Shown: piece after piece, positions 9,522 through 17,272 of the stretch
How the letters are laid out: each line of letters starts with the position of its first letter
How positions within the stretch are numbered: position 1 is the first letter of the stretch
From: Candidatus Altimarinota bacterium
GTDB taxonomy: Bacteria > Patescibacteriota > Gracilibacteria > UM-FILTER-43-11
NCBI GenBank assembly: GCA_028281045.1
Contig: JANQKP010000003.1
Location: 124,001 to 188,000 of the forward strand
Direction of reading: 5' to 3'
DNA: 64,000 nt
Program-made: the position numbers and the translations under genes
The notes under the pieces: generated by a model
Database searches by the model: none
Seen by the model: the letters and a program-made list of their open reading frames with translations, nothing else
Told to the model about the DNA's origin: nothing

Positions 9522-9548
9522 AAAGTGGCTTAAATAAGCCACTTTTTT
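9522..9548 (+). terminator. rho-independent terminator after the glutamate synthase-like gene
   Basis: AAAGTGGCTTA-AA-TAAGCCACTTTTTT. Confidence 0.8.
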
Positions 9549-9556
9549 GATACAAA

Positions 9557-9603
9557 GTGAATTTTTGTTCACTTTTTTCTTGACCGGGTGAACATTTGTA
9601 CAC
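9557..9603. promoter_or_regulatory. two SOS-box-like operators overlapping a promoter upstream of the small-peptide/lexA operon
   Basis: GTGAATTTTTGTTCAC (9557-9572) and GTGAACATTTGTACAC (9588-9603), resembling GAAC-N4-GTTC LexA boxes. The -35-like TTGACC (9580-9585) lies between them and a -10-like TATCCT follows. Confidence 0.65.
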
Positions 9604-9636
9604 TATCCTATGGGCGTCCAATAAACACAAAATATT

Positions 9637-9846
9637 ATGTTAATGAATCTTTTGATCGCAGCGAGCTTTGTTTTAATTTCTATCGCTTTCCTTCTGAATT
9701 TCGATAGAGCCTTCAATATCATCATGAAGGCGGGAGAGCTCATTATTTCCTTCGTTAAAAAAACAAAACTTTTTTTAAAGCATATGGAGCGCGCCCGTAT
9801 GCACACCCAAAAAAGCCTAAATAAAAACTACTCTTTAAATTACTAA
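9637..9846 (+). CDS. small single-pass membrane protein (69 aa)
   Basis: MLMNLLIAASFVLISIAFLLNFDRAF...: one TM helix then a basic tail; directly downstream of the SOS-box promoter. Confidence 0.6.
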   Translation: MLMNLLIAASFVLISIAFLLNFDRAFNIIMKAGELIISFVKKTKLFLKHMERARMHTQKSLNKNYSLNY

Positions 9847-9847
9847 T

Positions 9848-9934
9848 ATGATTGGAACTATTATGCTTGGAACCTTTATGATCTTCTCAATGTTCGCACT
9901 AGCTCTACTTGTAGATCTTGTTAGCGAGGCCTAA
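9848..9934 (+). CDS. 28-aa hydrophobic micropeptide MIGTIMLGTFMIFSMFALALLVDLVSEA
   Basis: ATG lies 1 nt after the TAA of the preceding small ORF; a single predicted TM helix; 21 nt before lexA. Confidence 0.5.
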   Translation: MIGTIMLGTFMIFSMFALALLVDLVSEA

Positions 9935-9955: not shown

Positions 9956-10534
9956 ATGATTGATCACATTCAAGAAAAACTGAGACGTATTCGTCAATAT
10001 TATAAGGAGAATAAAATCATGCCTACGTATGATGAAATTTGCAGCCTCCTTGGCTTTAAGTCTAAAAATGCTGCGTTTAAACTCGTCGACAAATTGGTGG
10101 AGCTCGGATTCGTCGAGAAAATGGATAAAGGCCGCATTCGACCAACAGAGCACTTCATGGGAATTCCACTGTTTAATTCCGTTTCCGCGGGGCCAGCAAC
10201 GGCTGAGGAAGAAGTGCTTCTAGACCGCGTTGATCTAAATGATTATCTTGTCTCCTCTCCTGAAAAGACCATTCTCATTAATGTTCGTGGAGATTCCATG
10301 ATCGAGGCTGGGATTCAAGAGGGGGACAAAGTCGTGGTTGAAATGGAATCCTCTACCCGTGTCGGAGACATTGTGGTCGCCGCCATTGATGGAGCTTATA
10401 CCGTGAAGTATTTAGATCAGTCTCCAAATGGCCAGGTTGTTTTACATCCGGCTAATCCTAATTACTCCCCTATCATTCCGAGCGGCGAACTTAAGATTTT
10501 TGGAAAGGTTGTGGGCGTTGTTCGCAAGGTATAA
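9956..10534 (+). CDS. lexA: LexA repressor
   Basis: HTH PTYDEICSLLGFKSKNAAFKLVDKL, Ala-Gly cleavage site SVSAGPA, catalytic GDSMIEAGIQEGD and YTVKYL. Confidence 0.93.
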   Translation: MIDHIQEKLRRIRQYYKENKIMPTYDEICSLLGFKSKNAAFKLVDKLVELGFVEKMDKGRIRPTEHFMGIPLFNSVSAGPATAEEEVLLDRVDLNDYLVSSPEKTILINVRGDSMIEAGIQEGDKVVVEMESSTRVGDIVVAAIDGAYTVKYLDQSPNGQVVLHPANPNYSPIIPSGELKIFGKVVGVVRKV

Positions 10535-10559: not shown

Positions 10560-10594
10560 AAATACCCTTCTTATTTAAAATAGAAGGGTATTTT
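10560..10594 (+). terminator. lexA terminator
   Basis: AAATACCCTTC...GAAGGGTATTTTATT inverted repeat. Confidence 0.7.
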
Positions 10595-12246: not shown

Positions 12247-12272
12247 AAAAGACCACTTCGGTGGTCTTTTTT
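12247..12272. terminator. bidirectional terminator between convergent genes
   Basis: AAAAGACCAC-TTCG-GTGGTCTTTTTT. Confidence 0.8.
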
Positions 12273-13950
12273 AGTACACCTCCGCCAGATAACAAGGTTC
12301 ACAATATACAATCTCTGGCCGATCTGGCGCATAGGATGTTTTAATCTCTGCGTTACATTTGGCACAGTTTCTATCCCAGAGCTCTCTAGGGTTCCTCTGT
12401 TTTAATCTATGCGCATGACGCACCTCTGGAGAATATCTTGGAAGAGGAATGTCATTTTCTTTATAGAATTTGAACTCTTGTGGAATGATTTTATAGGGCT
12501 TTCTTGTCTCTTCGCAGGTGAGCACTTCATTACAAATAGACTCCTCTGTGTCTCTTATAGAGTCTGGCAGTTCTACCTTTTTCTCTGGTGGTGTTACAGG
12601 TGGCTCATCATACCATTTAGCGCCTAATTTAAGAGCTTCTTCTTTAGAAATAGGCACGTAGTCCATCACGGTGCTCTGGTTGTAGTTAAGCGGACAAAGT
12701 TTCATCGGGAAGAACTCTCCCCATTCCCCTGTTTTCCTCATGTGCTCTATGATCTTTGGCACAAGGGCTTCGTATTCTTCTTTGGTGTACTGCTTGTTTA
12801 AGATGCAGTATTTTTTACTATTCATGGAAACGCAGCCAAAGATGTCTGAAGAATTATTGGTGTAGTAGCTGTAATACACATCTGTACCGTTGTACGTAGA
12901 AACGCTAAACAGTACATGGTTACTACTGTCTCCTACCTCAAGACACTCGTAGGCTTTTTCTGTGCCTGGAAGGCCCCAAGAATAGATGTCCATACAGTTT
13001 TTACTGTTGTGAAACCAGGCAATGTATTTACAGTCCCAGTTTCCGGTGGCATCGAAGGCGTACTCACAATTTTTATTGTTGTTTACAGAGTTTCCAATAA
13101 CGTTTTCATTCATTTCTCCCATCATGTACTTCACCGGATACTGCAGGCGGTGTTTTTCAAAGAAGGCCTTGGCTTCTTTAACACGGCTATATTTATGAAG
13201 CTCTAAGCTTTCCATTTTCTTTTCATATTCCTCCTTAGTGAGTTGCTTATTCATATACACATACTGCTTATTTACCAGGTTCACAGAGCCAAAACAGTTA
13301 CGGCTTCCTTTACAGTTGTAGAGGAAGTAAGAGTCTGAACAATCGTGACAGTTATAAGAGTATTTCACATTGTAACAGCCCTTAGAATCTATGAGTTCGT
13401 AACACTTTTCGCAGCTGTGTACGAAGCTAGAATCTACCGTAGTTTTTGAGTGATTAATGAAGATGTCATAGTAACAATCTTCATTATGATTCGCGGCTGA
13501 AATGAGATAACAATTCTTGTTCCAAGAAGCACTATTTACATAGTCGCTGTTTACGTTAGCCTTAGCTGAAAGGGCCATAAGAGGCACTTCTTTGATGAGC
13601 TCTTCGAATTGTTCGAAGAAAGGGCGAGAAAAGTCGAAATCACGGCCATATTTAGTGGCATCCCATTTGTCAGACCACCACTCATCGGTGTTATATACTA
13701 CGCAGTCTGCTTCCGGAGGATATAGTGAAACCATGGTGTTACCACTAAGGTCACTTTTACGCTTAAATAGGTGGAGTTCTGCGCGCCAAATGAGACGTCT
13801 TTGGTAACGACACTGCGGGCAAATTGTAGGGCCTGGAATTTCAAACTTTTCACCGTTAAATTCTGGGGCTAAATCATTCAGCAAATTACGGTCCCAATCT
13901 GCGACTTCAAAATCTTTTGAACATTGTTTACATTGAAGTTGAGTTGCCAT
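12271..13950 (-). CDS. Cys/Tyr-rich zinc-ribbon protein, paralog A
   Basis: MATQLQCKQCSKDFEV...CPQCRYQRR, YGRDFDFSRPFFEQ, repeated NC/CY motifs, C-terminal NCAKCNAEIKTSYAPDRPEIVYCEPCYLAEVY. Start placed at 13950, forming TAATG with the preceding stop. Confidence 0.85.
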   Translation of the reverse strand: MATQLQCKQCSKDFEVADWDRNLLNDLAPEFNGEKFEIPGPTICPQCRYQRRLIWRAELHLFKRKSDLSGNTMVSLYPPEADCVVYNTDEWWSDKWDATKYGRDFDFSRPFFEQFEELIKEVPLMALSAKANVNSDYVNSASWNKNCYLISAANHNEDCYYDIFINHSKTTVDSSFVHSCEKCYELIDSKGCYNVKYSYNCHDCSDSYFLYNCKGSRNCFGSVNLVNKQYVYMNKQLTKEEYEKKMESLELHKYSRVKEAKAFFEKHRLQYPVKYMMGEMNENVIGNSVNNNKNCEYAFDATGNWDCKYIAWFHNSKNCMDIYSWGLPGTEKAYECLEVGDSSNHVLFSVSTYNGTDVYYSYYTNNSSDIFGCVSMNSKKYCILNKQYTKEEYEALVPKIIEHMRKTGEWGEFFPMKLCPLNYNQSTVMDYVPISKEEALKLGAKWYDEPPVTPPEKKVELPDSIRDTEESICNEVLTCEETRKPYKIIPQEFKFYKENDIPLPRYSPEVRHAHRLKQRNPRELWDRNCAKCNAEIKTSYAPDRPEIVYCEPCYLAEVY

Positions 13951-15593
13951 TAATAAACGGTTAGTAGGTAGCAAGGTTCACAATAAACGCTCTCAGGGCG
14001 GTCTTCGGCATAAGTCGTTTTAATTGCTTTTTCACACTTGTCGCATTTGCGATCGTAAAGCGTGCGCGGGTTTTGCAGTGAAGCTCTTCTTTGGTGTCTT
14101 GCTTTTGGAGATAAATGAGGAATAGGCAACCCCTTTTGGCGGTAAAATTTAAGCTCACGAGACTGAATTTTAAATGGCTTATTCGTCTCTTCACATTCTA
14201 TCGCCCAGTTCAGTATATCATCTGGAACGTCACTGATGTTATCTGGAACCCTTCTGGCGGGGATTACTTTTATATCTTTAGGTAGTGGGGCTTCGTAATC
14301 AGACCACTTCCACCCTTTCTTTCTCACCTCTTCTTTTTCCATTGGGAACCACTCCATCGCTTTCGTTTCGTTGTAGCCAAATGGGGACATTTCTATAGGG
14401 AAAAACTCTCCCCATTCCTCGGTTTCTTTCATGTGTTCTATGATCTTTGGAACAAGCTCTGTGTACTCCTGCTTAGAGTATTGCTTGTTTAAGATCACAT
14501 AGCTGTTTTGCTTTAGGCTCATGCCACCAAAAACGTTACTAGAGCCTTGGCAGTTATCGCTGTAAGCGATGTTATCTGACTGATAACACAAGTTCGTAAA
14601 CTTCCCGTATTTGAGGTCTACAGCACCTTTACATTCATAAAGGAATTCTCCGCCTCCAATACGAGTACAATCGTAGCCATCTTTTACATCTTTCGCTTCG
14701 TAGATATAGCGCGCATCTTCAATGTCTTTTACATTGTAAGCATGCCGCGCGTTTTTAGAGTCTACAATGTAGTTTCCAGAGCAGTTTTCTACATTCGTAG
14801 ACCAGGCATACATTTTAGGCGCCTTAAGCTGCAAGGCTTTGTATTTTTCTAGAAACTCTTTTTTAAATTCAGGATCTGTTTTAAGCCTATGAATAGTACT
14901 AATACATTCTTCTTTAGACGCTGGCTGATTGAGAATATGATTCTTTCTATTACGAAGCCCTACGCAGCCCACTAGGCGCGTAGAAGACTTACAATCGAAG
15001 GCGTAGAAAGATTCTTGCACGTTTTCACAAAGCTCTAAATAGTTAGAAAGATTACAATCTTGGCTATCTACCGTTTCGAAACACATTTCCATACGGCTAC
15101 AGAACAGCATGTCCATGCTGTCTTTACAGTTAAAGCCCCAGTCGGTATACATTACATCTTCACAATCTACCAGAGAGCTTCCTATATAACAGTTTCTATT
15201 CTTGGAACTATGCACCGTAAACTCCGAGTTTTCACTTTGCGTATTAAAAATTGCCAGGCGTGGGACTTCTGCTCTCATTTCTGCATACTGCTCGAAGAAA
15301 GGACGAGAGAAATCATAGTCTTTTCCATAGTCCAGTGGGCTCCATTTATCACTCCAGAAACAGTCTGGACAAAGCACTTTAAGCGGCTTATCTGGCGAGT
15401 AAATTGAAATGGTAGGCTTTTTACAAAGATGGCATTCATTCTTGTAGTAATTCGAGTCATTTCTAAAAGAAATGCGACGCTGTTGCCTGCAATTTGGGCA
15501 AAGCTTTGGCGCAGGCACTTTCATCAGCTCGTGGACTTTTTTGTCCGCGTCTGTCACTTCAAAATCTGTGGTGCAACTTTTGCAATTAGCCAT
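13950..15593 (-). CDS. Cys/Tyr-rich zinc-ribbon protein, paralog B
   Basis: MANCKSCTTDFEV...CPNCRQQRR, YGKDYDFSRPFFEQ, CDKCEKAIKTTYAEDRPESVYCEPCYLLTVY. Confidence 0.85.
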   Translation of the reverse strand: MANCKSCTTDFEVTDADKKVHELMKVPAPKLCPNCRQQRRISFRNDSNYYKNECHLCKKPTISIYSPDKPLKVLCPDCFWSDKWSPLDYGKDYDFSRPFFEQYAEMRAEVPRLAIFNTQSENSEFTVHSSKNRNCYIGSSLVDCEDVMYTDWGFNCKDSMDMLFCSRMEMCFETVDSQDCNLSNYLELCENVQESFYAFDCKSSTRLVGCVGLRNRKNHILNQPASKEECISTIHRLKTDPEFKKEFLEKYKALQLKAPKMYAWSTNVENCSGNYIVDSKNARHAYNVKDIEDARYIYEAKDVKDGYDCTRIGGGEFLYECKGAVDLKYGKFTNLCYQSDNIAYSDNCQGSSNVFGGMSLKQNSYVILNKQYSKQEYTELVPKIIEHMKETEEWGEFFPIEMSPFGYNETKAMEWFPMEKEEVRKKGWKWSDYEAPLPKDIKVIPARRVPDNISDVPDDILNWAIECEETNKPFKIQSRELKFYRQKGLPIPHLSPKARHQRRASLQNPRTLYDRKCDKCEKAIKTTYAEDRPESVYCEPCYLLTVY

Positions 15594-17272
15594 TAATAAA
15601 CTTCATTTACATAGCATGGTTCACAATAGACCTCCTCGGGGTAATCCTGAGGAAAAACAGCTTGTATAGTATTTTGGCATTTATCACAGGTTCTAGTAAA
15701 GAGTTTTCTTGGTCTGCGATCTTTAATTCTGTCTTTGTGGCGCTCATCTGGATGCAATCTTGGAATAGGCAACTTCTTATCCCTATAAAATCTGAGCTCC
15801 TGGCTCGTGATCTTGAAGAGCTTTTGAGAGCGCTCACATTCAATGGCATAATGCAGAATATCGTCTGGCACATCATCGATATAATCCGGAATTCTAGTCG
15901 CCGGAATAACAGGAGCATCTGGCTTAGGGGCTTCAAAGTCACACCAGGTGAAGCCTTTAGCTAGGGCCTCCTCTTTTGTCAGTGGATAATACTCTTGAGC
16001 CACTGTTTCGTTATAGCCATAAGGCGAAATTCTAGGGTCGAAGAATTCCCCCCACTCTCCTGTTTTTTTCATGTGCTCTATAATTTTTGGCACTAGCTCT
16101 TCATATTCCTCTTTGGTGTATTGCTTGTTTAAGATGCAGTACTTACTCTTTCTAAGACCTGCAGAACCAAACACATATTCGCAAGTATTGGTACAAAGGA
16201 AATTATAGTAACTATCTACAAGACCGTTAGCGGTATTTAGAATAAAGGCAGTGCGTTCTACGTTAAGACCACCCCCTATAAATTCATAAGTCCACTTGGT
16301 TCCCCCAAGGGCATAACCGTCTTGGGTATTTTCTGCTTTCACTGGGGCATATATGACATTCTTAATGTTTTCACAATCGTGAGAATCAAAGGCATTCGTT
16401 GCATTTTTACAGTCATAAAGATGATTTCCCGCCACATTCTCCACATTAATATTGCGAGAAGCTCTTCTTGGAAGTGTTTTTTTCACTTCCAAAGAAGCTT
16501 CCTTATAGTTTTTAATCGTTTCTGAAGTGAACTTTACGGTATTCATAAAGGCTTCCCACTCCTCTTTGGAAACTTGCTTGTTATAAATATAATATTCCTT
16601 GTGGCTCAGCCCATGAGAACCCCAAACATTTTTGCAGCCAACAAGGTCTGAAGAGAAATAACAATTATTAGAATTTTCTAGGTCGAAAGAGAAGAAGCAT
16701 TCGTAACAATTCACACAGTCCACTGCCTCATAGCAGAGTTCAGATTTTAAGGTGTGAGACACATCTACACAAAAATTACAGTACTCGGCGCAGTATCCAT
16801 AAAGAACACCTTCGCAGAAGTCTGAACAGAAACACATGTAGCAATCTTTAAGTTGAAAAGCATTGCTGTTATAGTCTGAGTTTTCCTGTTGAATAAGCCA
16901 AAGGCCAATCACGGGAACATCTTCCCAAAGTTCACGAAGCTGATCAAAGAAGGGACGAGAGAAATCAAAATCTCTTCCATATTCTTTGGGATCCCAACCA
17001 TCTCCCCAGTAGCAATCAAAGCAAAGGGGCTTAAAAGGTTTGTCTGGGGAATATAGACTTACAATTTTCTTCTGACACAGACTGCACGTGTTACTATAGA
17101 GCTTCCTTTCTGCTCTGGCTGCCATGCGGCGCTGCATTCTACAATCGGGACAAAGCGTAGGATCTGAAATAGGATAAACTTTGCCTGAAAGATTTGGAGA
17201 GACTTTGGTCAAAAACTCGCGATCTTCTTTTGAGACTTCAAAACCGGTGTTGCACCATTTGCATGATTTCAT
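15593..17272 (-). CDS. Cys/Tyr-rich zinc-ribbon protein, paralog C
   Basis: MKSCKWCNTGFEVSKEDREF...CPDCRMQRR, YGRDFDFSRPFFDQ, CDKCQNTIQAVFPQDYPEEVYCEPCYVNEVY. Confidence 0.85.
   Translation of the reverse strand: MKSCKWCNTGFEVSKEDREFLTKVSPNLSGKVYPISDPTLCPDCRMQRRMAARAERKLYSNTCSLCQKKIVSLYSPDKPFKPLCFDCYWGDGWDPKEYGRDFDFSRPFFDQLRELWEDVPVIGLWLIQQENSDYNSNAFQLKDCYMCFCSDFCEGVLYGYCAEYCNFCVDVSHTLKSELCYEAVDCVNCYECFFSFDLENSNNCYFSSDLVGCKNVWGSHGLSHKEYYIYNKQVSKEEWEAFMNTVKFTSETIKNYKEASLEVKKTLPRRASRNINVENVAGNHLYDCKNATNAFDSHDCENIKNVIYAPVKAENTQDGYALGGTKWTYEFIGGGLNVERTAFILNTANGLVDSYYNFLCTNTCEYVFGSAGLRKSKYCILNKQYTKEEYEELVPKIIEHMKKTGEWGEFFDPRISPYGYNETVAQEYYPLTKEEALAKGFTWCDFEAPKPDAPVIPATRIPDYIDDVPDDILHYAIECERSQKLFKITSQELRFYRDKKLPIPRLHPDERHKDRIKDRRPRKLFTRTCDKCQNTIQAVFPQDYPEEVYCEPCYVNEVY

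Follow-up and report, generated by a model that had tools for sequence, protein, structure and literature searches.

Two conserved small ORFs upstream of lexA in a Peregrinibacteria family encode a predicted pair of SOS-controlled membrane proteins

Introduction

Do two small open reading frames lying between a pair of LexA-type boxes and lexA encode membrane proteins of the SOS response, and could such proteins hold back cell division? The question arises from a stretch of 64,000 nt (hereafter the window; G000:C5:124001-188000) of a 1.2-Mb genome whose nearest lexA relatives are labelled Candidatus Peregrinibacteria or Patescibacteria. Small single-span SOS inhibitors adjoining lexA, most of them unrelated to one another, recur across bacteria (PMC6851548). 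Among the known cases, YneA binds FtsW via its membrane span (PMC13396833), and SidA, an SOS-induced inner-membrane protein of 29 aa, also acts on FtsW (PMC4211646).

Organization of the Locus

The sequence-only reading of this DNA had described two boxes, 31 bp apart from start to start and overlapping a promoter, followed by a 69-aa ORF, a 28-aa ORF, and lexA in that order. All of these elements were recovered, together with possible boundaries on both sides:

9522..9545, no strand assigned: terminator-like hairpin AAAGTGGCTTAAATAAGCCACTTT, its stem taken from a scan (minus strand), with a T run after it on the plus strand
9557..9572, no strand assigned: upstream LexA-type box GTGAATTTTTGTTCAC, one mismatch to GTGAAC-N4-GTTCAC
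9580..9609, plus strand: sigma-70-type promoter TTGACC-N18-TATCCT, a consensus match only, such sites being no more frequent in the scan than in shuffled sequences
9588..9603, no strand assigned: downstream LexA-type box GTGAACATTTGTACAC, one mismatch to GTGAAC-N4-GTTCAC, inside the promoter spacer
9637..9846, plus strand: ORF1, 69 aa (conservation, pN/pS, hydropathy and charge, AlphaFold2)
9848..9934, plus strand: ORF2, 28-aa membrane micropeptide starting 1 nt after ORF1 (conservation, pN/pS, hydropathy)
9956..10534, plus strand: lexA, 192 aa (Peptidase_S24, TIGR00498, alignment)
10561..10592, no strand assigned: 11-bp inverted repeat AATACCCTTCT / AGAAGGGTATT located 3' of lexA, read from the sequence, its 10-nt loop exceeding the limits of the scan

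The hairpin at 9522..9545 sets the operon apart from the upstream gene, and the inverted repeat at 10561..10592 is probably a terminator. Because the boxes are preceded by the former and lexA is followed by the latter, the box pair, ORF1, ORF2, and lexA look like a single transcription unit. The promoter hexamers found in relatives were TTGATT or TTGCTT and TATAAT.

LexA Boxes and the LexA Protein

Boxes were searched with the pattern GTGAAC-N4-GTTCAC, using the reversed pattern as a control. Perfect boxes numbered 30 in 19 genomes of the family, versus 2 for the control pattern. The genome of the window contains seven sites with at most one mismatch, five of which precede lexA, recA, or radA: two at the lexA operon, two (30 bp apart) directly upstream of recA, and a perfect box directly upstream of radA; the remaining two lie inside long ORFs. 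A 16-mer identical to GTGAATTTTTGTTCAC occurs twice upstream of recA in this genome. Palindromic operator-type boxes are present in the pattern search both before the operon of lexA itself and before recA. Of the 17 family genomes in which the start of recA is covered, 15 have a box with two or fewer mismatches in front of it. Perfect boxes were also located in relatives upstream of radA, rarA, paralogous lexA genes, DNA-cytosine methyltransferases, and others, the product names being read from the sequences.

Control by LexA and the SOS response had been put forward earlier from the letters of the window, with a genome-wide search for the 16-mers as its check; in that search the box turned up before recA and radA, which supports the proposal. 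Since boxes recur before recA, radA, and rarA, SOS control of the ORF1-ORF2-lexA operon is very likely, and from the same sequence patterns we strongly infer binding of LexA to the boxes. The GTGAAC-N4-GTTCAC box may already be described in the 2017 study of the Patescibacteria DNA-damage network by Sanchez-Osuna, Barbe and Erill (doi 10.1111/1462-2920.13826), and novelty is not claimed for the box as such.

The LexA protein of the window matched Peptidase_S24 (PF00717) at 1.5e-27 and the curated lexA model TIGR00498 at 1e-31, with 110.2 bits, just below the cut-off of 110.95. The match to LexA_DNA_bind (PF01726) was weak (E 2.6e-4) and, at 21.3 bits, fell below the cut-off of 23.7. In the alignment the residues for autocleavage are kept, namely the Ala78-Gly79 cleavage site and the catalytic Ser114 and Lys151, all of them invariant in 10 orthologs.

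Conservation and Coding Selection of ORF1 and ORF2

Loci from genome contigs and from the genome search were combined, counting once those genomes present in both sources, and this gave 15 distinct orthologous lexA loci of the Peregrinibacteria family. All 15 contain, in the same order, the box pair with a spacing of 30-31 bp, ORF1 (58-72 aa, counted from the conserved start), ORF2 (25-28 aa), and lexA. This invariant arrangement bears out the operon with lexA that had been proposed for the window. ORF1 occurs as one copy per genome, solely beside the orthologous lexA. Four genomes of the family lacking ORF1 also lack the orthologous lexA; since three of the four retain the recA box, some of them may reflect mere assembly gaps. 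Among 384 genomes of the phylum, the only hits to ORF1 beyond its own family were marginal partial matches.

Selection was measured as pN/pS over five independent close pairs. ORF1 had a value of 0.29 (p = 2e-37) and ORF2 one of 0.23 (p = 1.4e-17); reading this DNA in its two other frames gave 0.85-2.13 and ran into stops. Strong purifying selection acts on both ORFs and is confined to this frame. Conservation of the two ORFs in related genomes had been named as a check in the sequence-only reading, and its outcome (all 15 loci, frames intact, low dN/dS), along with hydropathy, bears out the claim that they are genuine small ORFs with a single membrane span.

The distance between ORF2 and lexA is -8 to 38 nt at nine of the 15 loci, 127 nt at one, and 315-502 nt at five, all five of which carry another gene in between. 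The pair thus stays at the promoter though its distance to lexA varies. In the three relatives tested (L005:2577-2939, L008:2605-2973, and L009:1545-1907) the inserted gene matched 23S_rRNA_IVP (PF05635; a four-helix-bundle family), and L036 and L038 have a similar-looking ORF at this place. If co-transcribed, the insert would come under SOS control. L143 has another IVP-like ORF, located after a perfect box.

Paralogous lexA genes within the family are preceded by a box at a distance of 57-243 bp (only a looser one in L094), and no ORF1/ORF2-like pair was found 5' of them; nor was such a pair seen in more distant members of the class where the upstream region was read in the coding direction. 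Since the paralogous loci have the box without these ORFs, the pair does not accompany lexA genes in general. A generic lexA leader was likewise rejected, on the ground of these paralogous loci and of the variable gap or inserted gene before lexA. Several family members (L091-L097) encode a second, divergent LexA-like protein (~40% identical) with its own box 5' of the gene, GTGAAC-N4-GTTCAC or, twice in L091, TAGAACAAATGTTCTA.

The ORF1 leader of three relatives (L002:2662-2726, L004:2645-2711, and L007:2535-2596) contains a 13-bp hairpin whose loop core, CTGACTTGTGA, is invariant. Pairing in it is 100% and includes three compensatory pairs, the covariation being modest because only three sequences are involved. 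It was present in three of 19 genomes, once in each and at the ORF1 locus only; it had no Rfam match and is absent from the window. An Rfam scan of the loci of the three relatives yielded only tRNAs above the gathering score.

Features of the ORF1 and ORF2 Proteins

Hydropathy analysis of ORF1 revealed at 15/15 loci a hydrophobic segment covering residues 2-22 or so and preceded by no charged residue; the net charge of the tail that follows ranges from +2 to +11, the ORF1 of the window having +7. Topology was called by the positive-inside rule; with no charge before the span and net positive charge after it, the N-terminus is predicted to be outside and the tail cytoplasmic. AlphaFold2 modelled ORF1 as a single helix of residues 2-66 (pLDDT 86), and the tail forms a basic amphipathic helix. 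The tail (residues 41-63) is also the most constrained part of the protein, its pN/pS being 0.14 whereas the span has 0.43; both values come from that half of the family which carries a motif like RRSK-LTEYILRAYIRYRKTINK. Such constraint would be expected of a protein-binding surface. By hydropathy, ORF2 consists of little more than a hydrophobic helix and is nearly devoid of charged residues.

Searches with 11 members of ORF1 against Pfam, PHROGs, PADLOC, and PDB, and with 11 members of ORF2 against Pfam, returned weak, scattered matches only. ORF2 matched no Pfam or NCBIfam model, no LysM domain (Pfam) was detected in ORF1 or ten relatives, and neither protein was identified by any library searched, in agreement with the initial impression that these sequences are unrelated to known families. 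The phage family phrog_3667, whose function is not known, matched residues 2-61 of ORF1 weakly in three relatives (best E 5.4e-4) and did not match the ORF1 of the window itself. A phage or mobile origin was considered and rejected: one ORF1 query found no relative in phage records or viral contigs, and phrog_3667 is a weak lead carrying no function.

Comparison With Known SOS Membrane Proteins

The closest counterparts in position are YneA, ChiZ, SosA, and DivS, the lexA-linked proteins of Gram-positive bacteria, which like ORF1 are small, have a single N-terminal span, are controlled by LexA, and are encoded beside lexA, and which show little sequence likeness even to each other (PMC6851548, PMC13396833). 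SosA, with 77 aa, is similar to ORF1 in size. No sequence match to them was found for ORF1 or ORF2 in the libraries searched. Their C-terminus is extracellular, whereas the basic tail of ORF1 is predicted to be cytoplasmic; YneA and ChiZ contain a LysM domain, which ORF1 lacks; and sosA is divergent from lexA, whereas ORF1 and ORF2 are co-directional with it, lie upstream, and include a second micropeptide. Consequently, the description of ORF1 as YneA-like in the sequence-only reading holds for a small single-span protein beside lexA under LexA boxes and fails for the LysM domain and for the basic C-terminal tail, which is predicted to be inside. Given the lack of LysM and the reversed predicted topology, ORF1 was kept out of the YneA/SosA family, and it would at most work like the YneA/SosA/SidA class. 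We know of no precedent among lexA-linked inhibitors for two proteins, one of them of just 25-28 aa.

By size, SidA (29 aa) can be likened to ORF2, and DidA (71 aa, one span) to ORF1 (PMC4211646). DidA of Caulobacter crescentus is SOS-independent, unlike ORF1 with its LexA boxes, and SidA acts alone, whereas ORF1 and ORF2 are encoded as a pair. To our knowledge, SidA is not encoded in any lexA operon. DinQ, a hydrophobic single-span peptide of 27 aa controlled by LexA, is likewise similar to ORF2 (PMC3567139). The type I toxin-antitoxin loci of Escherichia coli encoding TisB and DinQ, in contrast, lie apart from lexA, have antisense RNAs, and lack an ORF1-like partner. No description of an ORF1-ORF2 pair was found in the literature compared, to which the 2017 study of the Patescibacteria DNA-damage network did not belong. 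By sequence comparison, ORF1 and ORF2 are a conserved pair of predicted SOS membrane proteins unrelated to known families.

The known SOS division inhibitors, each found separately, have hardly any sequence in common, and the clue they share is a small gene for a membrane protein next to lexA. That the lexA operon of an uncultured lineage holds a conserved pair lacking database matches suggests that this arrangement evolved again in small-genome bacteria, the Peregrinibacteria version adding a second micropeptide and a reversed predicted topology. ORFs of less than 30 aa in lexA operons can be missed, which calls for caution.

Proposed Function and Alternative Explanations

An autoregulated SOS operon predicted to make two small membrane proteins is well supported by these data, and we infer the induction of ORF1 and ORF2, their membrane insertion, and their topology. 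In an undamaged cell LexA would sit on both boxes and keep the promoter shut. Upon DNA damage, RecA filaments would bring about self-cleavage of LexA, and ORF1 and ORF2 would be made along with fresh LexA. ORF1 would span the inner membrane, its N-terminus pointing outward and its long basic helix lying in the cytoplasm, and ORF2 would be a bare membrane helix. Probably together, they would attach to some membrane-located part of the division or septal-wall machinery, for example the single FtsW/RodA-type protein of this genome, and division would be delayed until newly made LexA closed the operon, giving a reversible membrane checkpoint. The small membrane proteins are encoded early in the transcript, and LexA resynthesis would end their production. 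Joint action of the pair, its target, and division arrest are proposals drawn from analogy.

A division inhibitor is plausible by position and shape, since lexA-linked membrane inhibitors recur in unrelated bacteria. The genome of the window encodes FtsZ and a single FtsW/RodA-type protein, the latter at G000:C1:63165-64259. Because lexA-adjacent inhibitors recur, YneA and SidA act on FtsW, and both division proteins are present, a membrane checkpoint pausing division during DNA repair is our leading reading, to which we give a probability of about 0.5. Another SOS membrane function would also fit the evidence. Since the cytoplasmic tail of ORF1 is constrained, a specific protein partner is favoured over simple membrane damage, although this does not name the partner. 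In a more specific form, which we consider tentative, ORF1 and ORF2 would constitute a two-component SOS checkpoint unrelated to the described inhibitors, a membrane hetero-oligomer in which a basic cytoplasmic helix, and not an extracellular domain, stalls the divisome in a bacterium with a single FtsW/RodA-type protein. We know of no damage checkpoint effector so far from the Candidate Phyla Radiation, and this one, if true, would be the first. The pair is in any case a compact candidate for how small-genome bacteria coordinate division with DNA damage.

Two other functions are less likely, about equally so, and are the serious rivals. One is an SOS membrane toxin of the TisB/DinQ kind, by which ORF2, with or without ORF1, would lower membrane potential and ATP and lead to dormancy of damaged cells. 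ORF2 does resemble DinQ in size and make-up (27 aa, single span, LexA-controlled; PMC3567139), and control of translation through leader structure, as the compensated ORF1 leader hairpin of three relatives could provide, is typical of such toxins. However, that hairpin is absent from the window and confined to 3/19 genomes, DinQ and TisB belong to free-standing units that have antisense RNAs (PMC3567139) while this operon is joined to lexA at all 15 loci, and the strongest constraint falls on the cytoplasmic tail of ORF1 and not on the span. The other is a different membrane role in damage survival, such as tethering of RecA or the nucleoid to the membrane by the basic tail of ORF1, or modulation of an envelope enzyme. 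Such a role would fit the basic charge (net +2 to +11) and amphipathic helical character of the tail, joint regulation with recA, radA, and rarA, and the reported influence of DinQ on nucleoid compaction and recombination (PMC3567139), but the known lexA-adjacent precedents, by analogy, point to division inhibitors (PMC6851548).

Much less probable is that ORF1 and ORF2 are leader peptides whose translation controls lexA expression, and not functional proteins. The end of ORF2 near or overlapping the start of lexA at nine of the 15 loci is as in translational coupling; this is opposed by the gap of 127 nt in one genome and of 315-502 nt, with an intervening gene, in five, by selection on the amino-acid sequence of both ORFs, and by the paralogous lexA loci with boxes and without such ORFs. 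Functionless chance ORFs in the lexA leader, short ORFs commonly arising by chance (115 are listed in 11 kb), were rejected as contradicted by 15/15 conservation and frame-specific selection, and their probability is negligible.

Other Observations

Three tandem paralogous cysteine-rich proteins of 547-567 aa, with repeated CxxC motifs and a common C-terminal part, are encoded on the minus strand at 12271-17272 of the window; the one scanned had no Pfam match. In the relatives L149, L152, L151, L148, L156, and L153, perfect boxes lie 5' of genes resembling, as read from the sequence, ORF6N/KilA-N-type proteins, DNA-cytosine methyltransferases, and RarA, and in L149 and L152 the box has such a gene on one side and, on the other, a divergent cysteine-rich protein like those encoded at 12271-17272.

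Some other Patescibacteria, namely Taylorbacteria and a relative, encode a different protein of ~63-72 aa (MSKHQxIKTIRxEIDRLNQEIDLRIIKGVSYRREALRHKFL...) in the interval between lexA and a LexA box that is perfect or nearly so (L012:2753-2968, L015:2674-2862, L016:2734-2946, and L017:2589-2777), a second, unrelated small gene at the same position.
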